This document shows positions 1,362 through 32,819 of a stretch of 64,000 nucleotides of DNA, piece after piece. Source of the stretch: Chlorophyllum brunneum (lineage: Eukaryota; Basidiomycota; Agaricomycetes; Agaricales; Agaricaceae); the NCBI GenBank assembly GCA_963576785.1, contig OY756142.1, positions 3,615,777-3,679,776 on the forward strand, given 5' to 3'. The number at the start of each line of letters is the position of its first letter. Within the stretch, counting starts at the first letter, position 1. The position numbers were made by a program, and so were the translations under genes. Under the pieces are notes generated by a model that was not told the DNA's origin, did no database searches, and worked only from the letters and a program-made list of their open reading frames with translations.

Positions 1362-1630
1362 CTAGTGCAAGCAGGTACAGGTGGAACCTAAACACAAGTG
1401 AGTCCTCCATTCTATCGTACAAAAGACAAGTAATACTGACCGACACATTGTCCGCCTTTACCGTTACCTTCCTGTTTGCAGACAGTACTGCAAACATCGT
1501 TGGCTGCAGAGCCTAGGAAGTCACAGATGAAACCACGGGCTTCAAGCGAGACGGGCTCAGTTGTGGGAGTGGCCATTGCGGTAGTGGCGAAGAGAGCGAT
1601 GAAGGCGATGAGGATCTGAGTAGGCTGCAT
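1362..1630 (-). CDS. Secreted CSalphabeta defensin-like peptide precursor, A-type copy 1
   Basis: Exon 1 is 1441-1630, the intron 1388-1440 (53 nt, GT-AG, phase 1) and exon 2 1362-1387, giving 71 aa. Residues 1-20 are a hydrophobic signal peptide starting MQPTQ. A short Pro/Thr/Glu pro-region ends in LEAR, and the mature peptide would start GFICDF. Its six cysteines are spaced C-x10-C-x3-C-x10-C-x4-C-x-C, the CSalphabeta pattern of plectasin and invertebrate-type defensins. The last two cysteines come only from exon 2, so the unspliced frame misses them. Such peptides usually act outside the cell on bacterial envelopes; activity here is inference. A TATAAAA box lies 54-60 bp upstream of the start codon (minus strand, 1684-1690). 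It is divergent to B1. Confidence 0.85.
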
Positions 1631-2740
1631 TGTTGTTGGAGTATGTAGGTTGTTGCTGAGTTCATCTTGTTGCACAGAGTGCCTTTTATACGCTGGACAT
1701 ATCGTTTCCTAAGGAGGTTAAGGCTATGTTTTTCTTTTGACTTGCGTTGTAGTCAAGTTTCTGGCTGACGGGTGAGTTGCTTGGCTCCACTTTGGACACA
1801 ACAACGGATTGCTATCATGTTGATAACTGATCATTGTGTATCCTTGCTAGATGAGTTCTGCATCGCCGTCGTATATGACTCTAGATATGGTCATTGTTTG
1901 GGATGAGCGTAGAGATGCATTACAGTGGAGCCGTTGAAGGCTGTTTTCGCGGAGTGCCTCGCATCTGTCAACGCCTCGTTATACGTTCCGTTAGGAGCCC
2001 AATAATATGTTGAGGTATATGCTATCCCCCAAAGCCGCACGAACCATTAAAGCCCTCATATCATGCTTGCTAATCGAATTTATTAACTTCCCTACCACCC
2101 AATGACAGACGCTCGGAAGCTGTTTCCAAGTAGCAAAAAGAGAGATAACAATCATATACACACAGCGCTTTTACAGAGGTTTCGGAGCCAACGACCCCTT
2201 GTGACGGATCCCGTTCACAAGAGGATTGTCAGGCTGTAACATGGCTTCACAACAGATGTTTGTCGAGGTGCAGGGACGACATTTTGACAGTGGAGGGTCT
2301 CATGGGGCCGACTAGTAGTGGGCAGTGCGCCAAGTCTGACCAGTGTTTTGTGGAGCTGTGTGCTATTTTTAGTGTTCTGGGGGTACTTGTGTTTTCTGCG
2401 GTGATGTTGGCAGGAAATATTGGACTTGGACTGTTGTCAAGGCTGTCAAGACTGAAAGGCCGGTGTTAATGATAAGGGTCATGGCATGTCGTTTCACGTT
2501 ACAATTTGACAAAAAATTTGCAGGCTCCATGAGATTAAAAATCAAAACGACCGTCGTTCAGCTAATGCTCTTGGATTGCAATGCGTGTAGAGACTGACTG
2601 ACGGGGAGATATGTTAATGGGTAGTAATCATCTCCACAGCTTGATAATTTATTTAATAGCTGGACATTACGAAGAGTATAAAAGAGATCCAATTCCACCA
2701 GACGAGTTCTACATTCACAACAACAACTCTAACATCGAAA
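1631..2740. promoter_or_regulatory. Shared head-to-head promoter region of pair 1
   Basis: These 1,110 bp separate two divergently transcribed defensin-like genes. Each side has a TATA box (minus 1684-1690; plus about 2677-2683). Blocks conserved with the other three intergenic regions include an ATTTTGACAGTGGAG-like element near 2280 and an AAAACGACCGT element near 2545. I see no gene inside. Confidence 0.6.
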
Positions 2741-3034
2741 ATGCAGCCTACTCAACTCATCGTCGCTCTCATCTCTCTCTTCGCTACTTCAGCAATCGCC
2801 AGTCCAGCCCGCGCTCGTGCTCCTACACCCGGTGCACTCGAAGTTCGCGGCTTCATCTGCGATTTCCTGCCTGGACCTGCAGCAAATGATGCCTGTAGCA
2901 CTGTGTGCAAGCAGGAAGGTAATGGTAAAGGTGGTCACTGTGTTGGTACGTTGTATTCTCTGCTTCGTGTAGTAGAAAGTGGTTTACTTATCATTTGATG
3001 ATATACAGGGAGTACTTGTACTTGTTTGCATTAA
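2741..3034 (+). CDS. Secreted CSalphabeta defensin-like peptide precursor, B-type copy 1
   Basis: Exon 1 is 2741-2945, the intron 2946-3008 (63 nt, phase 1) and exon 2 3009-3034, giving 76 aa. A signal peptide of about 20 residues is followed by a pro-region rich in Ala, Arg and Pro that ends LEVR. The mature peptide of 40 aa starts GFICDFLPG, with cysteines at mature positions 4, 16, 20, 31, 36 and 38. Spacing matches plectasin closely. The pro-region is one residue longer than in B2-B4. A TATAAAAG box lies about 60 bp upstream. Mature B peptides are identical in all four B copies although the DNA differs at synonymous sites. Confidence 0.85.
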
Positions 3035-4754
3035 TTGGGATGACTTGACTGTGTACATCCATTGGCGATGGGGGCAAAGATTCCCCTTGTTTCGTTTGTG
3101 TTGTCGTTTCTGACATTACATGTATAGTCTTGAGGCGTACGGAGATGAATGTCGGATATTGTGATTTTATATCCTATTATAATAATATTTACTGGTCTTA
3201 AAATTCGTGTGTGCACCTGTGAATGCCTTGGTGGGGGTTCCTGAAAGGGGGGTTGTTCGAGGCGTCATGGTGAGAATCAGGGTTTTCGTGATCGATAATT
3301 TTGATGTTGGACAAGAGGAACGAATTGAACAGACTCTCCCTGTGATTGAACATGCCCAGACTGTTCTCTCTCCATACACGCACACTCATGACAAGCCTGA
3401 TTTTATGCACTCTTCCCTCAATATCGTGATGCTCACGGAAGGCTGATAATGGAAGGGATGAAACCAGGACTTGTTGTCAGTAACTACGGACGAGATTAGG
3501 AGAGTGGAAGGGTTGTCGAGAAAAAGTGTTCATGGGGAGGATGAATTGGGTAGGGTGAGTAGGCATCTTTCGGTGTATATACGCATCGAGTCTGGTCCTT
3601 GGAAAGCTTGTACTTCGAAGAACGTAGTTCCCGGTAAATGACAAGACCAATGCTGAGATCCTTGTGTACAATGCGATACAATAGCGGGTCAATGCTGGTT
3701 TATTGGAAAAGTAAGGGTGCCTTTGTAGTGGGAAGGGAGTGACGGGGTGGTACAGATGGTGGGTTTCGGACGGGAAGTGAGGTGAAGTTAGTGATGTTGG
3801 ACTATCATAGAACCGTCGTGATGATAAAGTCTGCAAGGTGAGACTTGCCTCAATGACCACCACAGCAACGATCATTGCCTCAGCTAATATTTGTTATTGC
3901 GAAATGTCTAGGAGTTGGATCAAATCTGAGCAACGCAATATATTATTTATACGACGACGGGGTGTGGGGATGGGTTCCATATCCTGGCCCCACCATGGGT
4001 TCATTTGAAAGTGCTTAGGGATGGCTTTCAGAGGGATGTGTTATTGAGCGTGGATACCGGGCCTGGCAGGAGATATCGTTGATGCTTTGTGGGGTACGAT
4101 GCGGGCGTGGGTGTGACAGCCGCGTGACAAACGCGTTTTTGTGCTCTTCCTCTGATTTGATGCTGTCACCTTTTGCAATTGGAGATCGAGAGGAGGTTGG
4201 TACGGAACACCAGAGTGACTCTCGAGGTTCGCGGGAATTGTACAAAGGTGAGTCTTCCCTTACGCCAGCGACTTGTCTGCAGACCAAAGTATATGCGGAA
4301 CACAGGAATACCCTGTTGTCAGATCGGTCTAGTGGGATCCCGTTTGGGTGCGGAGCGGCGTGAAAGAACCTGGCTGGACGTCGGTTGGAAACAGCAAAGT
4401 GGACCTCGTAAGAATTTTCTTCAGGCGCCTACTGTTGTGTCTTTAGAGTCGGACTCTATTTCTCTGTTTATCGTCCTTAAATTTCTCGCTTTACCCTTAC
4501 CAGCATGACCTCTTTCACTTTTCCAATAACTCGAGACAATCAAGAAGATTCGGTTCACTCGTTGTCGTCTCATCAAGATATAGTCCATTAGAAGCAGTAA
4601 GTTAAAGTCACGAAAACAAGTATACGCTCAAGGTGTGATAATTCCTCTATCAAATTATAGCACAGGCTATATGAGTGATATCAGCATCCCGAACAGAGTG
4701 TTGTAGAATCCATTCCTCACCTGATGGATATAAGACCGTATACGCGCGGATCAC
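3035..4754. other. Duplicated non-coding flank between pairs 1 and 2
   Basis: I see no credible gene. 3190-3870 recurs inverted near 13930-14830. The 132-codon minus-strand frame at 3477-3875 is not preserved in that copy. The part near 4020-4150 carries a recurring module (AGGAGATATC plus paired GTGACA/CGCGTGACA motifs) seen again near 7360-7456, 10198-10300, 13670-13770 and 15680-15780. Confidence 0.55.
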
Positions 4755-5027
4755 CTAGTGCAAGCAGGTACAGGTAGAACCTAAACACGAGTGAGTCCTC
4801 CATTCTATCGTACAAAAGACAAGTAATACTGACCGACGCATTGTCCGCCTTTACCATTACCTTCCTGTTTGCAGACAGTACTGCAAACATCATTAGCTGC
4901 AGAGCCTAGGAAGTCACAAATGAAGCCACGGGCCAAGCGAGACAGGTTCAGGTGCAGGTGTGGGAGTGGCCATTGTAGTGGTGGCGAAGAGAGCGATGAA
5001 AGTAATGAGGATTTGAGTAGGTTGCAT
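4755..5027 (-). pseudogene. A-type defensin-like precursor, frameshifted copy 2
   Basis: The start codon (5027), signal peptide, intron (4781-4833) and exon 2 (4755-4780) are all present and match copy 1. Relative to the other A genes, two bases are missing in the pro-region near 4933-4936, and the reading frame reaches a stop just before the first mature cysteine. The cysteine-coding DNA downstream is still intact in the other frame. Two extra pro-region codons are also present. A recent pseudogene or an assembly error would both fit. Confidence 0.8.
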
Positions 5028-6191
5028 TTTGTTATCGAAGAAAGTGAGTTGTTGTTGAGTTCGTTCTGGCACTTTGACTGCCTTTTATATGTTCGATATA
5101 TCGTTTCCTAGAGAATTTAAGGCTATTTTTTTGTTTTGACTTGCGTTGTGGTCAAGTTTCTGGTTGACAGGTGACTTACTTGAACTCCACTTTGGACAGA
5201 ACGGCGGATTGCTATCATGTTGATACTGATAATTGTGTGTCCTTGCTAGACAAGTTCTGCACTGCCGCCATATATGACCTACATATGGCCATTAGGGACG
5301 TGCATAGAGATGGACATAGAGATGTATTACGGTGGAGTCGTTGAGGCTGTTTTCGTGGAGTGCCTCATGTCTGGGAGCGCCCGTTATACATTTGTTAGAA
5401 GCCCATAATACGTTGGTGTATACCCTATCCTCTAAAACCATGGATTCAAGGATTGGACGATCCAGTTCGATGCTTAATACAATAACTTTGATAAGGTATG
5501 ATCTTGATAAACCTACATGAAGGACTAAAGTCAAGCACCATGTCTTCCAATCAAACCCCCATACCACACATCCGTCGCCTAAAATAATGATAGACGCTTG
5601 GAAGCTGTTTCCAAGTAGCAGACAGAGAGATAACAATCGTATACGCAGGCAGAAATTTGACAGAGGTTTCGGAACCAACGTAAAGTCGATACTGTTCATA
5701 ACATGACATGCAGGGACAACATCTTGACAGTGGAGTGTTTGGTGGGGTCGGCTATTGGGCACTGCACCAAGTCTGACCAGTGTTTTGTGGAGCCGTATGC
5801 TATTTTTAGTGTTCTGGCGGTAACTTGTGTTTTCTGCGGCGATGTTCGCAGGGAATATTGACTTGGCCTGTTATCGAGGCTGTCAAGACTGAAAGCCGTT
5901 CATGATAAAAGTCATGGCATGCCGTCTCACGTTACAATTTGACAAAACATTTGGGGGCTCCATGAGATTAAAATCAAAACGACCGTTGTTCAGCTCATGC
6001 TTTTGGATTGCAATGCGGGTAGAGACAGGCTAACAGGGAAATATGTTAACGGGTAGTAAAGTATCGTTATCGTCTCCACCTGTTTCACAATTTATATTTT
6101 TCTGAGATTATCTATAGCTGGACTTACGAAGGGTATAAAAGACATCCAATTCCACCAGACAAATTCTACATTCACTACTCTAACATTGAAA
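5028..6191. promoter_or_regulatory. Shared head-to-head region of pair 2
   Basis: 1,164 bp between A2 (pseudogene) and B2, similar along its length to 1631-2740. TATA boxes lie at about 5083-5089 (minus) and 6135-6142 (plus). Confidence 0.55.
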
Positions 6192-6481
6192 ATGCAGCCC
6201 ACTCAACTCTTTGTCGCTCTCTTCGCTCTCTTCGCTACTTCAGCGGTTGCCAGCCCAGCCCGTCGTGCTCCTATACCTGGTGCACTCGAAGTTCGCGGCT
6301 TCATCTGCGATTTCTTGCCTGGACCTGCAGCAAACGATGCCTGCAGCACTGTGTGCAAGCAGGAAGGTAACGGAAAAGGTGGTCATTGTGTTGGTAAGTT
6401 ACCTTGTTGGTTCTCTATAGTGGAAATTTGTGACTTACCATATAACGACTTACAGGCAGCACTTGTACCTGCTTGCATTAA
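6192..6481 (+). CDS. Secreted CSalphabeta defensin-like peptide precursor, B-type copy 2
   Basis: Exon 1 is 6192-6393, the intron 6394-6455 (62 nt, GTAAGT donor, phase 1) and exon 2 6456-6481, giving 75 aa. The ATG at 6192 is chosen because it aligns with MQPTQ in all paralogues. The signal peptide is about 20 aa and the pro-region ends LEVR. The mature peptide is identical to that of B1, B3 and B4. Codon differences from B1 across the cysteine region are all synonymous. Probably an antimicrobial peptide by fold; target unknown. Confidence 0.85.
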
Positions 6482-8096
6482 TTGGGATTATCTTGATACC
6501 TTCGTACATCCGTTGATTAGATCCCCTCCCTTTCGTTTACATTCCCATTTTGGCATCATGTGTTAGTCTTGAGGTGTCCGAACATATCTTTGTCCGAGAT
6601 TGTAGTCCTATACACTAATATAATAAGCCACACCAATCTTAAGATTCGCACGTGTCCTTTGCGAGCGCTGTAGATATGGTTTGCTCCCATTGAAGCACCT
6701 TTACCCCAACAAATGGCCCGCAATTTGCATGGTGCACTACTATCAAGCTACCACTCTGAGTGTGGCATATGCATGATAGATGCATCTCAACTTGGTGGGG
6801 ACTAGGAGCGGCAGGATTCAGGAAGACTGAAGAGGGGTCTTGTTCCAGCCATCACGGCGAGGATCACGGTTTCCATGTCTGAATGTGGGATTAGGGTAAT
6901 AATCGAATGCTTCCAAACTTTTCTCTCAGACACTCTCATTCATGACAAGCCTAATATTATGCGTTCCTCCCTCAATAGTATTCTTTACGCTCGGTAAAAG
7001 GTGATCACGGAACGGATGTAACAAAGGGGTTGGTGGTAACTAAGGATCGTAAGGCCTAGAATGTGAGAGCGGAAGCGGAAGCGTTCTAGAGTTCCACGGA
7101 GGATATGGTTTACCTAAATCACCACATTGCGTTCCCCCAATGCCGCTCCAACACCCAGACAGATGGCCCTCATACCTTCCAAATCTATGCTCTCATTCGA
7201 TATAATCGCAACGTCTAGGGTCGGGATATATCAGAACCCTATTCGACCAGTCCCATATATTATTTGAGCGATGCAGCGGCCGTGGTGGTGGGGTGGGTAT
7301 CTTGGTCTAAATTTGGGTTCGTTTGAGGGTTCTCAAAAACGGCTGTCCAATGGTTTTATTCTTGAGCATGGATACCTGACCTGGCAAGAGATATCATCAA
7401 CTTTTTATGGGGGACGATGTGGAAGCAGTGTGACAGGCGCGTGACGGACGCGTTTAGTTGTGACATCGCATTCAACTACACCCTGTCTGTGATCACCCAA
7501 GATCTTATACGCGTGTTCTCGTCCCCTTCCCGGATGTGGTAGACGCTGCATGCTGCTCTCGTAGGCAAGCTAGGCCTAAAAAACATCCACCCGGTTACAA
7601 AATTGACGGAAGAGGAACGGAATAGGGAAGTGGAACTCAGCAAAGGTATGTCACTAGGCACAAAGTGGGAGGCTCTCGTGATTGTATCAAGCTGGGTCTT
7701 CCTCTAAACGCGAAGATGACATGTTACCGGATTGATCCAAAGACATGAACGATAACTCACTTGTCCCTTCCTTATTGCAAGCTCAGACCAAGGGGAGTTG
7801 GGTGTCTACAGATCAATCGAGAATTTACTGGGCATTAGCTAGCTTTAATCTGTCACTTCACGTGTACTATCCCAGACCAAATTCATCAGATTTCGGAATA
7901 AATGCCAATTGACATCGTGTCGTCTCCTCAAGATACAGTCCATTAAAAGCAGTATGTAAGGTATGGTTACTAAAAATAATGTACAACGGACCATAGCATA
8001 GGTTATATTATGGATATCAGCGTTCCGAACAAGGCGTTCTAAAACCTATTTCTCACCAGATAAATGTACGGCCGTGTCTTGCCCCGGACGGAAAAT
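6482..8096. other. Non-coding duplicated flank between pairs 2 and 3
   Basis: No gene is supported. 6640-6800 is shared with about 9980-10120. 7190-7460 is shared, inverted, with 10200-10500, which marks the point where unit 4 flips orientation. Confidence 0.5.
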
Positions 8097-8374
8097 CTAA
8101 TGCAGGCAGGTACAGGTAGAACCTAAGTACAAACCACATCATGAGTCCTTGAATTCCCCCATATGAAAGTGGAGTATAACTAACCAACGCATTGTCCACC
8201 TTTACCATTACCTTCCTGTTTGCAGACTGTACTGCAAACATTGTTGGCTGCGGAGCCTAAGAAGTCACAAATGAAGCCACGGGCTTCAAGTGAGACGGGC
8301 TCAGGTGTGGGAGTGGCCATTGCAGTGGTGGCAAAGAGAGCGATGAAAGTAATGAGAATTTGAGTAGGTTGCAT
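8097..8374 (-). CDS. Secreted CSalphabeta defensin-like peptide precursor, A-type copy 3
   Basis: Exon 1 is 8185-8374, the intron 8123-8184 (62 nt, phase 1) and exon 2 8097-8122, giving 71 aa. The mature peptide differs from A1 and A4 only by Asp to Asn in the segment before the second cysteine (AANNVC). All six cysteines are present. The intron is 62 nt as in A4, against 53 nt in A1 and A2, so A3 and A4 share an intron-length class. A TATAAAGG box lies about 60 bp upstream. Divergent partner: B3. Confidence 0.85.
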
Positions 8375-9505
8375 TGTGTTTGTAGAAGAAGTAGCTGAGT
8401 TGATGTTGAATTCGTTCTGTATTCTGACTGCCTTTATAGGCTCTATATATCGTTTCCTAGGGAAGTTAAGGCTATGTTTTTCTTTTGACTTGCGTTGTAG
8501 TCAGGTTTCTGGTTGACGGGTGAGTTACTTGACTCCACTTTGGACAGAGTGACGGATTGCTATCATGGTAATAGTGATCATTGTGTGTCCTTGCTAGACG
8601 AGTTCTGCACCGCTGTCGTGTAGGACTCTGGATATGGTAATAATAGAGATGGATTACGGTGGGGTTGTTGGAGGCTGTTTCCGTGGAGTGCCTCGTGTCT
8701 GTCAGTGCCTGTTATACACACCTTTAAGAGCCCTCAAAATGTTGATGTATACACACACTATCCTCTAAAATCATGCACTCAATGGCTGGACAAAATGACA
8801 CCCAATTCAATGCTCAATATAATAAGGTATGATCTTGATAGATCTACATGAAGCGCTAAAGTCTAATACCATGTATACCGATCAAACATCTCATCCCCTA
8901 AAATAATCATAGACGCTTCGAAGATGTTTCCAAGTAGCGGACAAAGCAATAACAATCATATACCCGGAGAGCAAATTTGATAGAGTTGGAACTAACGTAC
9001 CTCAGTGATAGATTCCGTTCACAACAGGATTGTCAAGCTGTAACATGGCTAAACATGTTTGTCAACATGGAGGGGTGACATTTTGACAGTGGAGTATCTT
9101 ATGGGGGTGGCTAGTAGTGGGCAGTGTGGCAAGCAAAATGTCTGGCGGAGCCGTATGCTATTTTTAGTGTTCTGGCAGTACTTGTGTTTTCTGCGGCAGT
9201 GTTTGCAGGGAATGTTGGACTTGGCCTGTTGTCGAGGTTGTCAAGATTGAAAGACTAGTGTTAATGATAAAGGTCATGGCACATCGTTTCAACTTACAAT
9301 TTGACAAAACATTTGCGGGTTTCATGAGATTAAAATCAAAACGACCGTTGCTCCACTAATTCTTTTGGATTGCAATGCACGTAGAGACTGAGTATCTCCA
9401 CAGCTTCGTAATTTATTTTTTCTATAGCTGGACATTACGAAGAGTATAAAAGAGATCCAATTCCACTAGACAAATTCTACATTCACAACAACCATTATAT
9501 TGAAA
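8375..9505. promoter_or_regulatory. Shared head-to-head region of pair 3
   Basis: 1,131 bp between A3 and B3. TATA boxes are near 8431-8438 (minus) and 9445-9452 (plus). Conserved blocks match those of the other pairs, including the AAAACGACCGTTG element near 9337. Confidence 0.55.
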
Positions 9506-9795
9506 ATGCAGCCTACTCAACTTTTCGTCGCTCTCGTCGCTCTTTTCGCTACTTCAGCAGTTGCCAGCCCAACCCGTTGTGCTCCCACACCTGGTGCACT
9601 CGAAGTTCGCGGTTTCATCTGCGATTTCTTGCCTGGACCTGCGGCAAACGATGCCTGCAGCACTGTGTGCAAACAAGAAGGCAATGGCAAGGGTGGTCAT
9701 TGTGTTGGTAAGTTGTCTTGTTGGTTTCGTGTGGTAGAGGTTGGTTACTTACTATATAACGACTTACAGGCAGCACTTGTACCTGCTTGCATTAA
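9506..9795 (+). CDS. Secreted CSalphabeta defensin-like peptide precursor, B-type copy 3
   Basis: Exon 1 is 9506-9707, the intron 9708-9769 (62 nt, phase 1) and exon 2 9770-9795, giving 75 aa. The signal peptide and the mature 40-residue peptide match the other B genes. Residue 25 in the pro-region is Cys where the others have Arg (SPTRCAP against SPTRRAP). This adds an odd seventh cysteine to the secreted precursor and removes one basic residue. Otherwise the gene looks intact. Confidence 0.85.
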
Positions 9796-11413
9796 TTGGG
9801 ATGATCTTGATACCTTCGTGTGTACATTAACGAAGTGAGTAAAAGTTCTTTCCTTTATCTGACATCATCATCCTGACATCACATGTGTAGTCTTGAGGTG
9901 TACGAAGATATCTTTGTACAATTGGTAGCCCTATATACTAAATATAATCTCCATAATAATCTGTCCCAGTCTCGCTATTCGCATGTGTTCGTGTGAATGC
10001 TGTTGGTATGATCCGTTCCTGTTGAAGCACCTTTACTGCAAAACATGGTCTGCAACTTGCATAAATCGCATGGCGCACTACTATCAAGCTATCAACCTGA
10101 GTGGGACGTATGTGTGATAGACTTGTCTTGGCATTTCCCCCTACATCATACTTAGACCAAGGTGATGGGGGTCAAGGTTTTCAATATGAATGCGATGTCA
10201 CAAATGAACGCGTCCGTCACACGCCTGTCACACCTCTTCCACGTTGTCCCCCATAAAAAGTTGATATCTCTTGCCAGGCCAGGTATCCACGCTCAAGAAT
10301 ACAACAATTGGAAAGCCGCTTTCGAGCACTTTTAAACGAACCCAAATTTAGACCAGGATACCCACCCCATCACCACGACCCCTGTGTCCCTCAGATAATA
10401 TATAGGACTGGTCGAGTAGGCTTCTGATATATCCCGACCCTAGATGCGTTGAGATTATATTGAATGAGAGCATGGATTCGGAAGGCGTGAGGGTTATTGA
10501 CTTAGGCGATGGCATAGCATTGCTGGTGGAACCCAAAGTAATTTATGCAAGTCACATCCATTTGTGCATTTTCGATAGAAACATGAATCTGGTTCCCTTC
10601 ACATTTTGTACCGCAAACTCACCACTCCATGATATCCAACGGCGCACTCTTTATATGCAGAGATCCGAAGGTTACCGTCAGTACCACCCCTATCACTCTC
10701 TTCCCGCTACAAAGGGTTCCTTATTTCCAGGAACTACTATCGAAGTACCGGCATCCCGAGAGTTGAAAGTAGCGCATATATAGGGGTAAGAGAGGCAATT
10801 AGTATCCAATACATCTTCTAAGGGCAGAAGGATCCAGATACGGCGTCCTATTCTCCGTGAAGTTTGGTAGCCCTCTACTCTCACATTCTAGGCCTTACAA
10901 TCCCTATCGTCCCTCATGATCAGGCTCTCGTGAGCATAGGCAGTACTGTTGAGCGTATAGTCAGGCTTTATTGGGAATGGGTGCATGTGGGTGTGTAGAG
11001 AGAGCAGCTCCATGATAGATACTTGTGTTCCTATACTACACTATCTCCGACCACAACTCGAATGAGACTCTTCGTCAACAACTTCCTTGAGTGCCGCCAT
11101 TCCCAGTCCCCACTAAATCTGTCTACATTTCTGCGTGATTTCTTCCATTCCGTTTATGGCTCAGTCTGGTAGGATGTTTATGTAGCAGGAAAACCCACCG
11201 CACTCACAAAGAACACAGGCAAATGTTAAGACTGATACAGATTTATCGATATTATATGAGTATATAGGATTACAATCTCCATGACATTCAGAAGAAGATA
11301 TCTTCGTACACTTCGAGACTGTACACACGATGGCAGGACGACGATGTTAAATGAAGGAAAGAACTTTTTCTGACTTCATCAATGTATGTACGAAGGTATT
11401 GAGATCATCCTAA
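9796..11413. other. Non-coding flank spanning the unit 3 / unit 4 inversion junction
   Basis: 9980-10120 matches 6640-6800 directly, whereas 10200-10500 matches the reverse complement of 7190-7460. Orientation therefore switches near 10.2 kb. The 107-codon frame at 10460-10783 has no recognisable features. No gene is supported. Confidence 0.5.
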
Positions 11414-11703
11414 TTAATGCAAACAAGTACAAGTGCTCCCTGTAAGTTGTTATATGGTAAGTCACCAACTTCCACTATAGAGAACCAACAAGGTAACTTA
11501 CCAACACAATGGCCACCTTTTCCGTTACCTTCCTGCTTGCACACAGTGCTGCAGGCATCGTTTGCTGCAGGTCCAGGCAAGAAATCGCAGATGAAACCGC
11601 GAACTTCGAGTGCACCAGGTGTGGGAGCACGACGGGTTGGGCTGGCAACCGCTGAAGTAGCGAAGAGCGCGACGACAGCGACGAAGAGTTGAGTAGGCTG
11701 CAT
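11414..11703 (-). CDS. Secreted CSalphabeta defensin-like peptide precursor, B-type copy 4
   Basis: Exon 1 is 11502-11703, the intron 11440-11501 (62 nt, phase 1) and exon 2 11414-11439, giving 75 aa. Signal peptide, LEVR junction and mature sequence are as in the other B copies, with no broken codons. It is the B gene of the inverted unit, so it lies on the minus strand while still pointing away from its A partner. A TATAAAG box is at about 11752-11758. Confidence 0.85.
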
Positions 11704-12889
11704 TTTCAATGTAGATGTTGTTGTGAACGTAGAACTCGTGGAATTGGATCTCTTTATACACTTCGTAATGTCCAGATATAGACAATTTCAGGAAAAAATG
11801 ATGAAGATGATTACGATACTTTACTCCCCATTGACATATCTCTCTGTCAGTCTGTCTCTACATGCATTGCACTCCAAAGGCATTAGCTGAACAACGGTCG
11901 TTTTGATTTTAATCTCATGAAACCCACAAATGTTTTGTCAAATTGTAAGTTGAAACGACATGCCGTGACCCTTATCATTGACACTGGCCTTTCAGTCCTG
12001 ACAACCTCGACAACAGACCAAGTCCAATATTCCCTGCGAACATCGCCGCAAAAAAACACAAATACCATCAGAACACTAAAAATAGCATGTGGCTCCACCA
12101 TATGTTTTACTTGGCGAACTGCCCACTAACCGCCCCCACCAAACACTCCACTGTCAAAATGACATCCCTGTACCTCGACAAACATCTGCCATTTAGCTAT
12201 GTTACAGCTTGACAATCCTGTTGTGAACGGAATCTGTCACAAAGGGATGTTAGCTCCGAAACCTCTGTCAAAGTGCTGTGTGAGCATATGATTACTATCT
12301 CTCTTTCCGTTACTTGGAAATGACTTCCAAGTGTCTATCATTACGTGGTACGGAAGATAATCAGCTTGATTAGCCATTATAATATTCGGACTTTAGGCCT
12401 TCATGTAAATCTATCAAGATTAAACCTTGTCAAATTATCATATTGCGCATCGAATTGGATATCATTTCGTCCCATCCTTGAATGCAATGGTTTTAGAGGA
12501 CTGCGTATACGTTAACGTATCAAGGGCTCCTAACAGAATGTTTAAAGGGCACTGACAGACACGAGGCACTCCATGAAAACAGCCTCCAACGACTCCACTG
12601 TAATACATCCCTGCCCATCCCAAACAAAGTCAATCAATGACCATATTGAGAGTCATACACGGCGGTGGTGCAGAACGCGTCTAGCAAGGACATACAATTA
12701 TCACTATCAACATGATAAGAATCCGTCGTTCTGTCCGAAGTGGAGTCAAGTAACTCACCCGTCAACCAGAAACTTGACTACAACGCAATGCAGAAAAAAA
12801 ATAGCCTCAATTGCCTCAGTAAAAACATATAAAAGGCAGTTGGAGTAACGGAACGAACTCAACAACAGCTCACCTTCTTCAATAACAAA
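11704..12889. promoter_or_regulatory. Shared head-to-head region of pair 4 (inverted)
   Basis: 1,186 bp between B4 and A4, reverse-complementary in layout to the other three intergenic regions. A TATAAAAG box at 12828-12835 serves A4. The AACGGTCGTTTTG element near 11893 is the inverted form of the block in the other pairs. Confidence 0.55.
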
Positions 12890-13167
12890 ATGCAGCCTAC
12901 TCAGATCCTCATCGCTTTCATCGCTCTCTTCGCCACCACCGCAATGGCCACTCCCACACCTGCACCCGTCTCGCTTGAAGCCCGCGGCTTCATTTGTGAC
13001 TTCCTAGGCTCTGCAGCCAACGATGTTTGCAGTACTGTCTGCAAACAGGAAGGTAACGGTAAAGGCGGACAATGCGTCGGTTAGTTATACTTCACCTTTG
13101 AATGGTTGAAAATTGGGAACTCACGATATGATTGGCTTTAGGTTCTACCTGTACCTGCTTGCACTAG
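12890..13167 (+). CDS. Secreted CSalphabeta defensin-like peptide precursor, A-type copy 4
   Basis: Exon 1 is 12890-13079, the intron 13080-13141 (62 nt, phase 1) and exon 2 13142-13167, giving 71 aa. The 39-residue mature peptide is identical to A1. Cysteines fall at mature positions 4, 15, 19, 30, 35 and 37. Start, signal peptide, pro-region and stop are intact. This is the only A gene on the plus strand, because its unit is inverted. Confidence 0.85.
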
Positions 13168-16100: not shown

Positions 16101-16811
16101 ACAAACTACCCGGGAGATATCAGTACAAGCCAATAAAGTGCGAAATTTCTGTCGCAAACTCGACGGGTATATGAGTCCGGCTCCGTCCTATCTCCCATTA
16201 AAGAGTGCAAACACAGCGATCACCTAAACACAAGTCACTTAGTAAGTTCCAGTTTCCTATCTTCAAATAACTGACTCGACTTGCAGGTGCGAGTACGCGG
16301 ACTCACTATCCGCTCTTCCACTCCCATAAAGATTTTCCTGGCCCCATAGCGCCAAGTATCTCGAAGGCTGCGCGTCATACACAACAACGAAAATCCAGGT
16401 GGGAAGGGTAGAGGGATGTTATCGCTGCTCTGGTTCCTGTCATAGCGTACGTTTGAGAGTGAGATATTTTGTAGAGACCAGGCCAGGACGAATAAGAACG
16501 TAATATATACGTAATAAACGACTAAATGTCGTTTCCAGCACCTTGAATAACCGAGACCATCAAGGAGGGGATTCACATCCTTAAAGTGTCGGGCATTTCT
16601 TGAAGAATCTGGAACCGTACTTGGATACGGATCCCCCAGTGTGAGCTGTAACATAACACTTCGGAAGCCTGAGCATGAGAGCACATTCAATTAGTGTAAG
16701 CAAACAAGACATGCTCAGTGCGACAATATAGATCTTAACTGGTATGCGTAAAAAAGTTATACTCTTTTCGCACGAGCTTGAGAACGCACAAAATTACTTC
16801 ACGTTCATGAC
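13168..16811. other. Decayed duplicated DNA, no supported gene
   Basis: 13.2-14.8 kb is duplicated flank. 15680-15780 carries another copy of the CGCGTGACA/GCCAGGCCA module. A 151-codon minus-strand frame at 16235-16690 has one hydrophobic run but matches nothing I recognise and may be a membrane-protein relic. I see no RNA gene here. Confidence 0.45.
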
Positions 16812-18732
16812 TCAGGGCTCCTCAATCGATGTTGGGAATCGGAACAAATTTGCTGGATCCATCACTGCTTTGAGACGTTGAAGACGTTCATAGTGTTTAC
16901 CGAAATATAATTGCGGCCCTAAAGCCTGCATCAGTCTACATCATGTACCTCACAGAGCGGAACTCACAGTTATCCAGCCTATCATCGACATAGTTTGGAT
17001 AGGCGCTTGTTATCGGGGTCAGGGAACAAAACGATTTCAATCAGAATATAATGGCTCACGTATATCTCCAGTTCGAAGGGTTATTATTGGTTATACTATT
17101 AACCATCCCTGGTGGATACAAATAAATACTCTGAGTCGTGAACAATGAAAGGGTACCTGAGTCAGCTCACCATCAATCATTGTGAATCCAGATTGCGGAA
17201 ATGGAGGACTAGTTGCGTTCACACTACCATAGAACTGGATAAGGAAGAGTGCATCCCTGTTTGCGAACGCCGTGTCATCAACAGGCACAGCATTGACCGC
17301 GGACTTTGATCCTCCGAATTCTTCGACTTCAATGAACCAATCCTAGGCATGACTTTGAGCGACCTTTTGGCGTGATTTAGAATTGTGGACCTACCAGCTG
17401 AGACATAAAACCTTCATTTGCTAGATACTCCATAAACTTGTCCTGGCTCTCCCTCGTCATTGGCTGGCTCTCTGGCGTCAAGAGTGACTTGGGATAAAAG
17501 GCGGTTGTTGCTTGATCTGGAATACCGGTCGTATTCAGCCTCATGCCTTTCTCACCAAAGAATGCAACACTGTCGATATAGCTTCCAGGTTTCACAAGTT
17601 GAATTTGTGGTTTCAGACCAATTTGATGGAGAAGAGGAGAGATGACAGGGCTGAAAGCATCCGCGGGGCCAAACCACACGCCTTGAAGTGTGAGGTTGAC
17701 TTTGCCCTTCTCACTACCCTTCACAATTTCCAATTCCGAGCCGAATTCGGGTGGAACCCCATCGAGAGAGAATTTTTGGTACGCGTCGAGAAGGGAGGAC
17801 GCTCTTGGTGCCGCGAGGTCCCAGTTGTACTGGAATACTGTAGCGGACGGAGGTACAGGGAAAGTTTTGATTGTGATAGAAGTGATGATAGCGAAGGAAG
17901 ATCCACCACCACGCAGACCCTAGCGAGATCTCTTAGTTAGCCAACCGGGTGTAGCATTGATCAGGATTATTCCAGAATAGCAGATGACTCACCCAGAAGA
18001 GCTCCGGGTTTTGATCCTTCGAAGCGGTTGTAATTGTTCCATTTGCGAGCACAACATCCATCGATAAAACAGCATCCAACGCGAGACCCCACAGTCGTGA
18101 AGCATAGCCAAATCCACCATATGCTACGTGCCCACCGATACCGATATACGGACATGTGCCGTGCCCAAAATCACGTCCATAACTATTCAGTGTTAATGCG
18201 GTATCGCCGAGCCGATTTCCAGGTTCAATCAGAGCTGTGTTGGAATGAGGGTCGACCCGGATTTGAGTGAAATGGCGGTTCATGTCGACTACAACTGCGC
18301 CGTCTTGACCGCCTAGGCCGTTGGCGACGTAGCTGTGCTGTCAGGTACGTTGTTATTAACTCAAGAAAAACGAAACGTGACAACATTGGACCTACCCCTC
18401 CACTTCGAGGAGCTACGGGTTTACCAAATTTTGCCGCCGTCTGAACGATTTCAGACACCTGTTCAGGTGCCGTAGGGAATGTTACTGCTGCCGGCTGAAA
18501 TGCGAATCTATGATTGACTGGGATTTTGTTCATTATATCTCCTCCACAGCTCCGACAAATTTAGAAACCTACAGGGAGCGCTCGCATTTTCATAGCCTTG
18601 ATCTCCTGGTGCAACGAGTGCCACTCCTTTGGCCCTCAAATCTGCGATCAGATTTTGCCCCTCACAAAATGGGGCTAAAAAACTAGTCAAGAGGAACAGC
18701 ACAGTTAAAAAGTTTAACTTGGGAGTAGCCAT
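16812..18732 (-). CDS. Secreted FAD-linked oxidase (BBE/GOOX-like, AA7-type)
   Basis: Eight exons splice to 505 aa: 18573-18732, 18396-18517, 17993-18337, 17395-17919, 17171-17342, 17060-17108, 16968-17005 and 16812-16918. All introns are GT-AG and phases match. Residues 1-25 form a signal peptide. An FAD-binding PCMH domain follows (SGGHSYVANG with His95; GHGTC with Cys156). This His/Cys pair is what carries bicovalent FAD in glucooligosaccharide-oxidase and berberine-bridge-type enzymes. The C-terminal substrate domain ends with the typical AYPNYVDDRL and LYFGKHYERL motifs. It probably oxidises sugars or other secreted substrates, giving H2O2. Length is normal for the family, and no damage is seen. 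Confidence 0.88.
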
Positions 18733-19734
18733 ATTGGGCAGGGAAGAGGTCTGAGACGAAATAAGATTTCACTATTTATGCTACTCGTCGCGTGCCTAAA
18801 ATATCGTTCTGTGTACAATGTGAATGTTTGCATCATCTCTTAACGTACGGGGTCAGCTGCCATTCAATCCCTGCGAGGGGTAAGTAGACGTGTAAAAGAT
18901 GCCCCACGTACCTATAAATACACCAGTTTGCTGGAGTCGGTATAGAGCCAACACATTACCAGTTGGAGAAATTGCGAAAAGTGCAACTAAAGGACGTCGA
19001 TGGGTAATCTAGTCCACATCGACGTCGAATCGCAGATTATCAGAGTAGCAGCAAGACACAGTCTTGAAGGGAGTGTTCAGGAGTGGCGGGCGCCACGGAG
19101 CCGTGTTGGATCCATATAGCTGAAAGTGGGGATAATTCGGAGGTAGGCGTCATGATAATGGACCACTTGCAGTGGCGCGGTACGCTGTGTATTGATAGAT
19201 ATAGCAAATTTCAAAAATAAACAGCCTGGGAATGCAAAAGCATGCTGGGGTGTAAACCGCATTCTTCGGCTCCAACGTTCAGTTATCAAAGACAGAAGGG
19301 TTTGCAGAGGATTGCGACGCGTGGAACTAGTCATTTGACCTGTTGTGAAGTCGCACGAAGGGCTTAAATGTCCAGCATGGAAATAAGGAGTTTGTCACAT
19401 CTTGGTCACGTCACATATATCGTTTGACTACTTCGATAGATAAGATATCCAGGGGAAAGATCGTGTGTTCACGCACGCTCTTTATGGAATCACTTTCATC
19501 ATGTATTCTTGTCCCTCCCTCACTGCAAAAACACATCGTGACATATATATATTATCCACTTGGCACCTGGTCCCGTTCTACTTCCTAGTCACTCCAATAT
19601 CCCATCTCCATATCACATTGAATTTGCATAACCCGCTGCAAGGTTTATTGAAGAAAGAACCTTCACGAAGGAGATCCAGACCTTCAACAAACCGGTGGGT
19701 ACTGCCTGGCCCCCCCCCCATACCCTCCCATCCC
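18733..19734. other. Intergenic, nothing recognised
   Basis: This holds the upstream region of the oxidase gene. No gene, repeat or RNA is supported. Confidence 0.4.
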
Positions 19735-21583: not shown

Positions 21584-22153
21584 TGTTGAAGTTTCGGACA
21601 TATTCTAGAAATAGACTATGAAGTCATTATGATAATAATAGACTGATCCGTTACTTTCCAGTAACTTCATTCCGTAGTAACTTCCTATGAGTTGCTCTGC
21701 ATACGATGAGAGTCATAAGTACTTGATAGATTATTCTACATAGTACCAATGACTAGATACTACATTCTACAGTACTCCGCAGGAACTACGCCGCAGTTAA
21801 AGGGAGTCATAAGGAACAATCCATGCAATGCTAGTATTTTATGTAGTATGACTTGCACATGTTACAATATGTATATAAACCCCATGTACAGACCTAGTTC
21901 TGCATCTTGTTCAATCGAACAACTTCTTCATCATTGCCTATCTCTTTGAGTACAACACCTCCATCGATCTAATCGACTTTGACCTCTACTTATCTGACGT
22001 TAACCGCTTCATCAATAATATCTGTCTATCCGAATTACCTTTCTACAGGTATCAGATAGAAGCTTATTATCTCGGTGAGTAGACCCTACGTTCTCTCCCA
22101 CTGCATTTACTGCTGCCCCCAGCAAACAACTCGTTACGGTCGTTTCCTCAACA
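21584..22153 (+). repeat. 5' LTR of copia element
   Basis: About 570 bp starting TGTTGA and ending TCAACA. It is nearly identical to 28371-28939, with roughly ten differences by eye, mostly substitutions plus small indels near 21893-21905. Confidence 0.92.
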
Positions 22154-22312
22154 GGTTATGGGCTCCGGTAGCCTTACCGATGGTTAAACCATTATCATCC
22201 TCTCTAACCGAGATAGGATGATAGGGCTTTACCTGACAGAGTTATCCTTGTATTTGATCATTGCTGATACGAGAATTTTCTTCTAGAAAGAAATACACTC
22301 GACAAAGATATT

Positions 22313-25300
22313 ATGTCTACTAATAATATTATCGCTGGTTTACCTAAGCTTAATGGGCCAAAGAACTATGCGTTCTGGTCTAGAAGGCTTCAGGATGCCC
22401 TAACCCTCATTTCTGTCACTGGTTCTGACCAGTCCAGATGGACTGTGACAGACCAGGATCTCTCTCCTGCGAATCCTACCACCTTAACGGAGGAGGATAG
22501 AAGGAGAGAACAATTGAGAGGTCAGGCATTGGCTGTTATTAATGGCACCTTACCTGATTCCCTGTTACTCCATGGGCATGATGCTCCTGGATTCCTCTGG
22601 AGTGACTTGAAAACCCGCTTTGGGACACCTTCTCCTGCCGCGGTGTATTCAATCCTCCAAAGAATGTTGCGAAAGCGCATTTCAGGGAATCAAGATCCAG
22701 CAATGGATCTAGCTGAATTGAGAACAATGGCTTCTCAATTAGAAACAGCTAAAGTAAAATTGCCAGAAGTTCTTGGCGTGATGATCGCTTTGAACGCATT
22801 ACCACCAGATTGGAATGCAGTGGCACAAACAACATTGGCGAATAATCACGATGTTGTAGATATGACCTGGGAGGTAGTTCAGCAGGCTATAAATGCTGAG
22901 TGGTCAAGACGTGAAGGGTCAAGACCTAACATGTCTAACCCACAAGCATCTTTTGCCGCCACTGCCAACTACCAAGCTCGCCCTCAGGGCAACTTACCCA
23001 GGACTCGCCCTGGACCACCCTGGAACCGCTTCCACCCTGGAGGCGATACCAGGGCCCAGCCTGCGAGAGGTCCTCACCACCCTGCCAATCCAAGTGGGCA
23101 GCCCCCTCAGCCTTCTCCTCCTACTCCTAACTGGATTAACATCCAGAAGAAGAAGAAGAAGCCCAAGAAGTGCCAGGGTAAACCCCAGGCCCACATGGCG
23201 GAAGCCATGGCGGGCTTCGCTGCTGCCACAGAACCGGTGGTCCGTCGCTTCACTGGTCTGGGGATGACCCCCTTCGACCTGATGAGGCGCATAGACGCGC
23301 CTCGACCCGTTCCTGCTCCCGCTCCTCCGACCACTCGTGTATTAGTGAGTGAGAGACCAAAACCTCTTACTTGGGTTAATCCCAAGAAGGTCCAGCAGAC
23401 ACGAGAGAATGCTCGTGCTGAGCTCGAGAAAAAGGTGCATACTGAAGCACGAAACTTATGTTTCACCGCCTTGCTCGAAAACTCACTGCGGATCCAACAG
23501 GTGACCACCTGGCACGACCGCGTCACTGGTCCTTCACCTATGCAAATGGCGAAGAAACGTGCTCTCGATCGTTATGATTGATGAATGCACGAGGTCTCTC
23601 ATCCCTGCGCCCAACAAGGATGATCGGTAACACCTCCCGGTGCACCTTCAGTTCCTTCTGGTCACTCCCCAGGTTGTACCTGTGAGGGACACACGAGGGT
23701 GAGTAAATGGTTCACTAAGAAGAGTAACCCCAATATTAATGTGACTCGCGTCCGTTTCGCTTTTCTTTTACCTCATAATTCACCATATGCCTTATTGATT
23801 TCTCCCAAATTTGGGAATAAACTCAATTTGGCTATGCATCATGTGGTAAAGATTCCAAGCATGGACTCTGTCGCCTGGGGCGACTCCCTTGAACCCAGAG
23901 AGATTCGGCCGTACTACCTTCCTCCTCCGGAGGAAATAGTAGCTCCGACTGTCAGGACCTACGAAGAGGAGTTCCCTCCTCTTCCTCGGGCCTCCCCTCC
24001 AATGGAGCAATTCCAGAGTAAGAAATACTCTCTTACTCAGAAAAACAAGACCGCTGACAGGTGATCTGCCACACTTACAGTGTTGGTAGATGAAGCCTTC
24101 AAACGGCTTGAGAGCAAGAAGGAGGTTGACGACCTCATGGCGCTGGCTCAGGATGTCGCCTACGACATCCGCGACCCCAGGAACCCTGCAAACGTCGCAG
24201 GACCCTCTTCTGGGCCTCTCCCGAAGTCTCCGAAGTCTGAACCCTTTGCTTCGGCACCTCAATCTGAGGTGTCACTCGGACTTTTGTCGACCGACTACGG
24301 AAGCGACTTCAAGAAGAAGGGAGGAGCTGGATACGTGATCAATTCGATCTCAGATACTCTTACTAACCCTGATACACAGTCCTGTCACCAATATGCCAAC
24401 TGGCCGTCTTCGCAAGAAGAAGGGTAAGGGCAAGGGGAAGGGACGTTGGGGGCCGGGCATGTAATTATGCTATCGGGATCTTTAGGATCCCATAATAATG
24501 TTGTTACGAGCGAATTGATGAATGAGAAGTGTTTTAACACTTCTCAATTTTCTTGTTTCTCCACACGTATGCCCGATCAGTATTTAAGAGTACCGGATCA
24601 ATTAAGATCTCTATCACTAAGCAATGATCAAATCATAACGCCACTAGAAGAATATAGTGACATATGGTTATTAGACTCAGGAGCATCATGTCATTATACC
24701 CCTTATGCGGAAGACTTCATTAACTTCGAAGAACTCGAAGTTTCGATCCCAATTAAGACTGTAGGAGCACAAAGTCCCTATCTTAATGCAGTTGGTCTTG
24801 GCGCAGTTATACTTAAGCATAGAGTCTATAATGGGAAGACTGACAGCGTTCAACCAACGCAGATATTAATATATCCAGTCTTCCTTCTAAAAGGAACCTC
24901 TGAACGACTAATGTCAGTGGGACAGTTATGCCAGGATGGAAAAACTGTTAGAACAGATGCCAACGAATCAGTAGTAGTTGATAGCGAAGGAAATGCTATT
25001 CTTCAAGCATATCCTTCAGCAAGTTGTAATACTACTTAACATTTTGTTAACATAAAAATTGTACATTCGGAACAAGCAGCCATGACTGCGGATCTGATCA
25101 TTGGCTACAAAGTTGTACATGCGAGATTAGGACATCCCTCTAATCGTATCCTTAATCACTTTGAGAAAAATACGATTGGGTTTACTCCGGTGCAGATTCC
25201 TGAGCAAAAGCCAGTCTGTGACGGTTGTGCCAAGGGAAAGATGCACCAGAAACCCTTTAGAGAGAACCCTACACACGCAAAGCGTCCATTCGAAAGAATA

Positions 25301-28300
25301 CACTCGGATTTAGTTGAACTTCCAATTCTTTCTTACTATAAATTTAAATGGGTCATGACCATAATGGACGACTTTTCCTCTCATGGATGGATTCACTTCC
25401 TCCATAAGAAATCAGAAGCAGCAGAAGAAATGAAAAATTTCATTGCCTTAATTCAGACTCAATATGAGACTAAATTAAAAAATCTCTGCACTGATAGAGG
25501 AGGAGAGTATGCAACTGACGAGTTGCAATCTCATTTGCACTCATTAGGGATTATACATGAGACCAGTGCACCGCACATACACCAACAAAATGGTCGAGCG
25601 GAACGCTTGAACCGAACTCTAATGGATAAAGCAGAAGCCATGCGGCATCATGCTTGTATTCCTGATAGTTGGTGGGAGTTTTCTATAGATCATGCGATAC
25701 ATATCTATAATAAAACACCGGTATCATGGCTCATGTGGAAAATACCTTATGAAGTGTTGAATCAGAAGATTCCAGACATCTCCAAAGAGAGAGTCTTTGG
25801 CTGCGGTGCTTATGTCTTTCTCCCAAAAGAGATAAGAGACAATAAACTGACAGCGAAATCAGAACTCATGATTTTCCTTGGTTGGACATCAGACAGGAAA
25901 AATTATCGTTTCATGAGGCACCTAAATGGAAATGTAATCTATACATCTCCAACAGCCGTATTCAGCGAAGAACACTTCCCTAAATGTGTTGGGAAGAAGC
26001 AAGAAGAATGGATGAACCAACTATCATCTTCTACTTCTCGAAGTACACCTTCGGAAGTTATTGTCTTCCATGCTCCAGATCCATCTACTGGTTTACCTAT
26101 TGATAAACCACCAAGCCCTATTCCCTGAACTTCTACCGGAAGTTCTCCGGAAGATAGGACTTATAGATCTGTACATGGACGAATTCCAACTCCTTTCCCT
26201 AAACCTAAAAATAATAAAGGAAAGGGAAAAGCACCGAATATCGATACCGATGTTCAGGAGGAGTGGGATGGTATTGTGCAAAACATTCTCTTTCCACCAA
26301 GAGAAGCACAAACACCAGAAGACGATGATAGTGATAGATTATCTTATGCTGATCCACCTAATCACCCTGAAGGTTCAAACCATCCGCCTTCTCTAAGAGA
26401 TGATCCGGATGTACAACCATTCATACCCTATACCCCTGTCGAAGATGATTGGGATGCTGGTTCTTCTGTACCACGAGGTTACTCGGATCAAATACCGGTT
26501 CCTGAAATACCTCAGAGACCGCAAAGAACCAGAAAAGTATCTGAACGTCCAGGAAACTTCTATGGTTCTACAAAGCATCCGACCAAAATACTCCAGGACT
26601 ATGAGATGTTCCAACCTCCTAAGTCGAAATTAACAAGTTCTACAAGTAGACTTGTTAGACAAATTCGATCAGAGGCTCCCAAACCTGGAATAATCGATAG
26701 ACGTTCTCAGCATGAAGCTTCTACATTAGAAGACTTATGCAGAGAAGGAGGAGTAGGGATGATCGATTATCTGTGTGCTCAAAAAGTTGAATCACCATTA
26801 GTTCCTATTTCTTTCAAGGATCTAAATCGACTACCATCAGAAGAGAAATCTAAATGGTGGAAAGCATGCTTAGAAGAGTTAAATTCACTCAAAGAAAGAC
26901 ATGTTTATGACTTAGCTAAACTTCCGCCTGGAAGAAAAGCTGTCAAAAATAGATGGGTCTTTACACCCAAATCAGATGGTTGATACCATGCTTGACTAGT
27001 AGCAAAAGGATTCTCTCAGATAGAGGGAATCGATTACGATGAACTATTTTCACCAGTAGTCCGTTATGAGACAGCACGACTCATATTTGCAGTCGCTGCC
27101 CTCAATGATTGGGAGATGCTCAGTTTAGATGTTAAAACTGCTTATCTCTACGGAAAACTGGATGAAGAACTCTATATGGAACTTCCAGAAGGTTTCAATA
27201 CAGGTCGTGGTAATCTGGTTTGGAAATTAAACCGAGCCATTTATGGATTAAAGCAATCTGGACGACAATGGTGGAAGGAATTGACTAAGTCAATGACCGA
27301 CCTAGGATTTGTCCGATCCAAACTAGATGCTGGAGTCTATTATTACTACGACCCTGAAACCAAAGAGCTTATTATAGCTCTGGTCTATGTAGATGACTCA
27401 ATGTTTGTTGGAATTAGAGGCTCTAGACTTCTACATGAGAAGTGAGCACTCTTTATGAAGAAATGGGAATGCCGAGACCTTGGTCCAACCAAAGAGTTTC
27501 TTGGCATGAAAATTTCGCGAAATCCTATAAACCGATCAATCACCCTAGACCAAATGGATTATCTAGGAAAAGTACTTGATCAATTTAATATAATTGGAAA
27601 AGAAGAAATACCATTACCAAATGGATTTATCTTCAAATCCAATACAGGAAAAGTGATACCTGACTTCATAAAGAGGTATCAACAATTAGTAGGATCAGTT
27701 ATGTATCTGATGATAGGCAGTCAGCCCAACATAGCTTTCGCCACTGTCAAATTATCACAACATATGACCAATCCAACTAAAGCGCATTATAATGCAGGCT
27801 TACATTTGCTAAAGTATCTTAATGCTACTCGCAAATATAGAATTACCTATAATGGAAGTTCTATGCAAGGCCTGAATGCCTTTTCCGACTCTGATTGGGC
27901 TGGTGATCCAATTAGTTGTAAATCTGTAACTGGATATTTCTGTTTGTTAGCCAGCGGAGCTATCGCTTGGTTAAGTAGGAAACAGAAAACTGTTGCATTA
28001 TCTTCCACCGAAGCTGAATATATGGCTTTATCAGATTGCAGTCGACAACTTGTTTGGACTGTCAATTTATTGGAAGAAATTGGTATCCAATCATTAGCCC
28101 CTTATCTCTTCGGTGATAATGAGGGTTCAATATTTTGGGCCAAGAATCCAGTAACAGAAAAACAATCAAAACACGTCGACATCAAATACCATTACATCCG
28201 TGATTTGGTAGAAGATGGAAAGATTGAAATATTCTCTGTGAAAGGCACTGAAAATCCTGCCGATATTCTCACAAAGAATTTAGACAAAATTAAATTCAAT

Positions 28301-28336
28301 TTATTCCGACCTCGCCTTGGCTTGACGTTTGAGTGA
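22313..28336 (+). pseudogene. Copia gag-pol polyprotein with internal stops
   Basis: From 22313 to 28336 one frame runs without any indel but has ten internal stops: TGA at 23579, 23582, 23621, 24062, 26126, 26981, 26993 and 27443; TAA at 24425 and 25037. Domains in order are gag (22313-23581), protease DSGA (about 24674), integrase zinc motif HARLGH..CDGC and a D-D-E core (25082-26000), RT with YVDD (about 27391), and RNase H ending with the usual ADILTKNL block. The TGA codons at 26981 and 26993 replace the two conserved arginines of the family RYKARLVAKG motif, so CGA-to-TGA transitions are the likely cause. It is not autonomous as it stands. Confidence 0.9.
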
Positions 28337-28370
28337 TTAAAACTCTATATCAATACAGAGCAAGGAGGAG

Positions 28371-28939
28371 TGTTGAAGTTTCGGACATATTCTAGAAATA
28401 GACTATGAAGTCATTATGATAATAATAGACTGATCCGTTACTTTCCAGTAACTTCATTCCGTAGTAACTTCCTATGAGTTGCTCTGCATACGATGAGAGT
28501 CATAAGTACTTGATAGATTATTCTACATAGTACCAATGACTAGATACTACGTTCCGCAGTACTCCGCAGGAACTACGCCGTAGTTAAAGGGAGTCATAAG
28601 GAACAATCCATGCAATGCTAGTATTTTATGTAGTATGACTTGCACATGTTACAATATGTATATAAACCCCATGTAGCAGACCTTTCTGCATCTTGTTCAA
28701 TCGAACAACTTCTTCATCATTGCCTATCTCTTTGAGTACAACACCTCCATCGATCTAATCGACTTTGACCTCTACTTATCTGACGTTAACCGCTTCATCA
28801 ATAATATCTGTCTATCCGAATTACCTTTCTACAGGTATCAGATAGAAGCTTATTATCTCGGTGAGTAGACCCTACGTTCTCTCCCACTGCGTTTACTGCT
28901 GCCCCCAGCAAACAACTCGTTACAGTCGTTTCCTCAACA
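28371..28939 (+). repeat. 3' LTR of copia element
   Basis: About 569 bp and near-identical to the 5' LTR. It ends 36 bp before the start codon of the downstream terpene synthase, so any LTR promoter or terminator activity would bear on that gene. Confidence 0.92.
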
Positions 28940-28944: not shown

Positions 28945-28975
28945 CTCCACTCTCCCCACTACCACAAGGACAACA

Positions 28976-32800: not shown

Positions 32801-32819
32801 TGTTGTGCGTTGAATCGAT

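Follow-up and report, generated by a model that had tools for sequence, protein, structure and literature searches.

The 64,000-nucleotide stretch analyzed here (the window) forms the right-hand terminus of contig C4 (OY756142.1, positions 3615777-3679776 of 3679776) in assembly GCA_963576785.1 of Chlorophyllum brunneum, and at positions 1362-13167 it contains eight genes for CSalphabeta defensin-like peptides arranged as four head-to-head pairs, each composed of one type A and one type B gene. The copies of each type are kept to one product by strong purifying selection, such that amplification has yielded dose, not variety. We favor, with moderate confidence, the explanation that a pair of secreted and probably antibacterial defensins of the abisin (fDEF1) type was amplified for dosage near a chromosome end. 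The original prediction, made from the sequence alone, had described seven intact genes and one frameshifted gene in four divergent pairs separated by 1.11-1.19 kb, including an inverted fourth unit, and all of this is borne out by the following features, in which genes run from ATG to stop codon and intergenic regions lie between start codons:

1362-1630, minus strand: A1, CSalphabeta defensin-like gene with a 39-amino-acid mature peptide; intron 1388-1440.
1631-2740: intergenic region of pair 1, 1110 bp, with two conserved promoter blocks and a TATA box on each side.
2741-3034, plus strand: B1, with a 40-amino-acid mature peptide; intron 2946-3008.
4755-5027, minus strand: A2, with a frameshifted pro-region and a mature region that still encodes the 39 amino acids of A1.
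5028-6191: intergenic region of pair 2, 1164 bp.
6192-6481, plus strand: B2; intron 6394-6455.
8097-8374, minus strand: A3, with a mature peptide one amino acid off the other A peptides; intron 8123-8184.
8375-9505: intergenic region of pair 3, 1131 bp.
9506-9795, plus strand: B3; intron 9708-9769.
11414-11703, minus strand: B4 (inverted unit); intron 11440-11501.
11704-12889: intergenic region of pair 4, 1186 bp.
12890-13167, plus strand: A4 (inverted unit); intron 13080-13141.

The intact A and B precursors consist of a hydrophobic signal peptide (called on hydrophobicity alone), a pro-region ending in L-E-x-R, and a mature peptide with six cysteines; in A2, the frameshift within the pro-region puts the L-E-x-R out of frame. 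All eight genes carry a single GT...AG intron of 53-63 nucleotides, which splits the c-loop between C4 and C5. The cysteines are spaced 10-3-10-4-1 in A peptides and 11-3-10-4-1 in B peptides, and those of plectasin 10-3-10-6-1. The predicted near-exact match to plectasin thus holds for A, save for a c-loop of four residues, two shorter than the six of plectasin as generally given. The pattern of the second exon occurs seven times in the window (six times in A and B genes and once in a further family member, type C, described below) against 0.19 occurrences expected, and the array is not a product of chance. In B2, B3, and B4 (6192-6570, 9506-9840, and 11414-11703), the reading frame is open across the intron and past it, and the 54-nucleotide intron of type C is likewise open; these open introns are probably due to chance, with intron-retained forms a possible alternative.

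Across the mature codons of the four B copies, 17 nucleotides vary without a single amino acid change, and across those of the four A copies, 15 vary with one change: the four B peptides are identical, as are A1, A2, and A4, and A3 differs by one residue. None of the simulations of random mutation produced so few changes (0 of 3002 for A and 0 of 3002 for B). The pooled ratio of nonsynonymous to synonymous divergence (dN/dS) in the mature codons is 0 for B and 0.016 for A, compared with 0.27 and 0.08, respectively, in the signal peptide plus pro-region (for A, from the three intact copies); these comparisons are not independent, and each involves about 26 silent sites. Silent differences amount to 0.28 for A and 0.37 for B. 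Silent sites have thus drifted around a fixed mature peptide, indicating that dosage was favored over diversification.

Identical mature peptides could also arise through very recent copying or gene conversion, without selection, and some tracts are indeed unusually alike. Intron identity reaches 0.98 between A1 and A2 and 0.95 between B2 and B4, and the groupings of units supported by informative sites vary by region: units 1 and 3 against 2 and 4 lead in gene B (10 of 17 sites), and units 1 and 4 against 2 and 3 lead in the intergenic half that adjoins gene A (15 of 28). These mosaic splits suggest sequence exchange between copies. Conversion is disfavored as the main cause of identity, however, because it would also have erased the silent differences, which make up nearly all of the 15 and 17 variable sites in the very codons concerned. 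Moreover, intron identity ranges down to 0.62, with 10 of 12 comparisons at only 0.62-0.81, and whole intergenic regions (gaps excluded) are only 0.81-0.83 identical in all six comparisons of units, which include 132-194 gapped columns. We therefore regard recent copying or conversion as a highly improbable source of the identity and retain purifying selection.

What was duplicated is the pair. When the four units are aligned, windows within genes are 0.84-0.94 identical and most intergenic windows 0.76-0.89 (falling to 0.66 at 2037-2110), and most flanking windows lying more than about 200-250 bases past the stop codons are at 0.35-0.61. The predicted co-amplification of A and B as a unit is supported by this contrast between conserved intergenic DNA and unconserved flanks. 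Particular units also share stretches of spacer (unit 1 with unit 4 and unit 2 with unit 3), implying that the copied segment was formerly longer than the present cassette. Searches of the 38.9-Mb genome with intergenic DNA and one spacer returned, at the sensitivity of the search, no matches outside the cluster; the other three intergenic copies were each recovered as two pieces flanking the middle. We propose that a divergent cassette of about 2.1 kb (an A gene, a regulatory region of about 1.1 kb, a B gene, and short 3' ends) was multiplied into four copies, of which one is inverted, and that these would subsequently have exchanged sequence, with purifying selection holding mature A and B so that each added cassette would supply an extra dose of the same two products.

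The array belongs to a larger family on the same chromosome arm. Beyond the eight A and B genes, the original prediction had missed three intact genes and two relics within the window, as well as one gene and one relic located 13-15 kb outside it:

C4:3600806, minus strand: E1, intact paralogue of E2, outside the window.
C4:3602403, plus strand: F1, relic without an ATG at the conserved place, outside the window.
32752-32801, minus strand: F3, remnant of a signal-peptide exon (A-like F type); its upstream region matches those of F1 and F2.
About 34600-34890 (ends approximate), plus strand: F2, A-like relic, frameshifted and without an ATG at the conserved place.
37574-37841, minus strand: D, divergent intact CSalphabeta gene, C-x7-C-x3-C-x9-C-x4-C-x-C; intron 37603-37678, phase 1; a further in-frame ATG lies upstream at 37886.
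38270-38500, minus strand: C, intact CSalphabeta gene without a pro-region; intron 38299-38352.
40414-40647, plus strand: E2, intact divergent CSalphabeta gene, C-x4-C-x3-C-x9-C-x4-C-x-C; intron 40568-40621.

Types A to E all display the framework C1...C2-x3-C3...C4...C5-x-C6, and the C4-C5 intron is in phase 1 in all 10 intact genes of the window (seven of types A and B, plus C, D, and E2); this shared intron place and phase argues for common descent of types A to E. The L-E-x-R pro-region is missing from C, D, E1, and E2. A scan of the last 192 kb of the chromosome with a gene grammar (ATG, hydrophobic start, C-x3-C, intron after C4, C-x-C, and short tail) recovers 11 distinct intact genes (A1, A3, A4, B1 to B4, C, D, E2, and E1) and finds none in any of 10 first-order Markov sequences of the same length. 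Because the grammar was written once A to D had been seen, its independent yield is E1 and E2; it permitted alternative splice choices for some genes, for which the choice with the usual donor was adopted. Genome searches with exon 1 proteins of B, C, D, and E matched only this chromosome arm, giving lower bounds on the size of the family. Another chromosome carries, some 13 kb from its end (C6:3047432-3047503), a sequence interrupted by stop codons that may be a decayed CSalphabeta-like remnant, with a weak match to Gamma-thionin (E value of 1.28).

The assembly comprises 14 contigs; CCCTAA repeats stand at the start of 13 of them (1.9-4.7 Mb) but not at that of the remaining 59-kb contig. 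Telomere repeats at 63888-64000 of the window mark the end of contig C4, placing the A/B cluster 51-63 kb from it, and the predicted subtelomeric location is therefore accurate in a loose sense.

There is good sequence evidence for assigning types A to E to the CSalphabeta superfamily, as had been predicted for A and B. A profile of 11 family members, searched against PDB sequences, has as its top match drosomycin (1myn; E value of 7e-5), an antifungal insect protein, and among the best 60 of 101 matches, 59 are by name defensins, scorpion-type toxins, or derived scaffolds (names classed from general knowledge, with hydramacin counted in the superfamily). The drosomycin match spans only the part from the helix to the C terminus. 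Single-sequence searches were made for B, C, D, and E2. Type C again favors drosomycin (E value of 8.9e-5), and all 20 of its matches at E values of ≤1 belong to the superfamily. B instead favors toxins of the Cn2 kind: its strongest match is the scorpion toxin Cn2 (E value of 0.0039), and its 23 matches at E values of ≤10 comprise 18 scorpion-type toxins or defensins, four macrodomain proteins, and one tick salivary protein. At the same threshold, superfamily members account for all 22 matches of E2 (best E value of 0.055) and for 13 or 14 of the 15 matches of D (best E value of 0.0099). Shuffles that hold the cysteines in place lose most or all of these matches (at E values of ≤10, 0 of 3 and 0 of 1 matches are to the superfamily for two shuffles of B, and one shuffle of C yields a single weak match, lucifensin, with an E value of 0.46), so that the similarity reaches beyond the cysteine pattern. 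In Pfam, type C passes the cutoff of Defensin_2 (PF01097; 23.8 versus 20.4 bits), and one A, one B, and D score below the cutoffs of the CSalphabeta families; at E values up to 1, Gamma-thionin, Toxin_2, and Toxin_3 are each matched by 8 of the 11 members, and Defensin_2 is matched by 2. Structures were predicted for two chains with the intron still included, and both models are helix-strand-strand.

The paired layout is real, and it may carry regulatory meaning. In each of the eight A and B genes, a TATA box precedes the ATG by 55-64 bp, the two halves of the intergenic region (on the A side and on the B side) share no match longer than 13 nucleotides, and two conserved blocks surround a poorly conserved middle. 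One promoter region shared by each pair, as originally put forward, is thus no more than a possible reading: we take the region to be two back-to-back promoters under constraint, perhaps coordinated. These same features would be expected if the head-to-head layout had no regulatory meaning and one ancestral arrangement had simply been copied four times, and in compact fungal genomes a spacing of 1.1 kb between divergent neighbors is nothing unusual. However, the pair and both promoter blocks stay conserved while most of the flanks decay, and the relatives of other types are also divergent. The order along the chromosome, with signs denoting strand, is E1- F1+; A1- B1+; A2- B2+; A3- B3+; B4- A4+; F3- F2+; and D- C- E2+, so that every member except D has a divergent neighbor, and the separations are 1596 bp for E1/F1, 1913 bp for C/E2, and 1818 bp for F3/F2, although three of the six partners in these pairs are relics. 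A layout devoid of regulatory meaning has, in our estimate, slightly less than an even chance of being correct.

The nearest known peptides are the abisins. Abisin1 to abisin3 of Agaricus bisporus, family fDEF1, were published in 2014 as products of 40, 40, and 39 amino acids encoded by single-intron genes (PMC4165938). Like A and B, they have a pro-region, occur as paralogues on one contig, and show silent-only divergence: two have identical mature peptides and four silent changes (abisins 1 and 3 according to the text, whereas the table lists equal masses for 1 and 2). Compared by description, A and B share with fDEF1 the signal peptide, pro-region, six-cysteine peptide of 39-40 amino acids, and single intron; the text of PMC4165938, as available, does not state whether the intron lies in the c-loop. 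There are three abisin genes and eight A and B genes, and mass and charge differ (4097 and -3.8 or 3926 and -2.8 for abisins, versus 3999.5 and -1.1 for B and 3911.4 and -1.2 for A), making A and B relatives of abisins, not the same peptides. The novelty of the arrangement is accordingly smaller than first claimed. Plectasin of Pseudoplectania nigrella and the pyronesins of Pyronema share the signal-pro-mature precursor and the six-cysteine framework (PMC3778014 and PMC4165938), and Pyronema also has clustered paralogues with pseudogenes within 10 kb, although there the intergenic regions reportedly lack conservation (PMC3778014), in contrast to those described here. Copsin of Coprinopsis cinerea is likewise a basidiomycete CSalphabeta peptide, one that acts against Gram-positive bacteria via lipid II (PMC6272156), but it has 57 amino acids and six disulfides, versus 39-40 amino acids and six cysteines in A and B.

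The A and B precursors are most likely secreted, cut behind L-E-x-R by a kexin-type protease, and folded with three disulfides, and the two genes of a pair would be expressed together. The products would most likely act on rival bacteria outside the hypha, and analogy to plectasin and copsin makes lipid II the likeliest target. Three of the nine plectasin residues linked to lipid II binding (F2, H18, K20, I22, K23, Y25, K26, Y29, and Y40; list from PMC12284004, numbering as generally used) are kept in A and B, so that this target is proposed from peptide class; copsin, too, is described as lacking residues reported for plectasin (PMC12284004).

Alternatively, A and B could be CSalphabeta peptides without an antibacterial role (growth-regulating, developmental, signaling, or antifungal in the manner of drosomycin) that were amplified for dose within a tissue. 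Drosomycin is the best structural-database relative of both the family profile and type C, A and B carry a net negative charge, and their near-frozen mature sequences are unlike those of an arms race. Some classical insect-type fungal defensins are reported to regulate fungal growth, and most members in Zymoseptoria might have lost antimicrobial activity (PMC5234102). Yet lipid II is given as the target of all characterized antibacterial fungal peptides of this kind (PMC6272156), the abisins are even more negatively charged than A and B (activity is not reported for them in the available text of PMC4165938), and A and B begin with GF-x-C, similar to the start of plectasin. We consider a nonantibacterial role possible but rather unlikely, and a secreted, probably antibacterial pair amplified for dosage remains our preferred explanation.

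A further reading is that A and B form a two-component defensin, produced at a fixed ratio from one divergent cassette and acting jointly, either as mixed oligomers or on different targets of one competitor, such that the cassette would be the unit of selection. The idea is motivated by divergent fungal effector pairs with interacting products, such as SIX3/SIX5 and SIX8/PSL1 of Fusarium oxysporum, which are small secreted products of adjacent divergent genes; those partners come from different structural families, interact, and are driven by a shared promoter (PMC10942635), whereas A and B are close paralogues. We find this reading improbable; were it true, the whole locus, with E/F and C/E2, would constitute a standing array of divergent CSalphabeta pairs.

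Other features of the window include two paralogous terpene-synthase-like genes (about 28960-30230, plus strand, and 40843-42110, minus strand) that flank the part containing F, D, C, and E2; one piece of each passes Pfam Terpene_syn_C_2, and 82 of 113 residues are identical in the compared pieces. Together with an FAD-binding oxidoreductase (FAD_binding_4; about 16800-18770, minus strand) and a short-chain dehydrogenase (36290-36950, minus strand), both located close to the peptide genes, they may represent a biosynthetic cluster. A Ty1/copia-type element occupies 21584-28830 (Pol_BBD domain in one frame), and its two long terminal repeats are 98.5% identical over 461 aligned columns, indicative of a fairly recent insertion.

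Although peptides of this kind were already known as abisins, the larger mixed cluster and the paired layout make this a useful new case, widening the abisin kind, described so far from three paralogues, to a locus where five types (A to E) are intact. With four copies, dosage and diversification can be weighed directly against each other, and the balance favors dosage. Dense and well assembled, the locus is suited to asking why defensin genes amplify, and it yields short peptides that can be synthesized; if A and B act jointly, it would represent a paired-peptide defense arrangement in a fungus.

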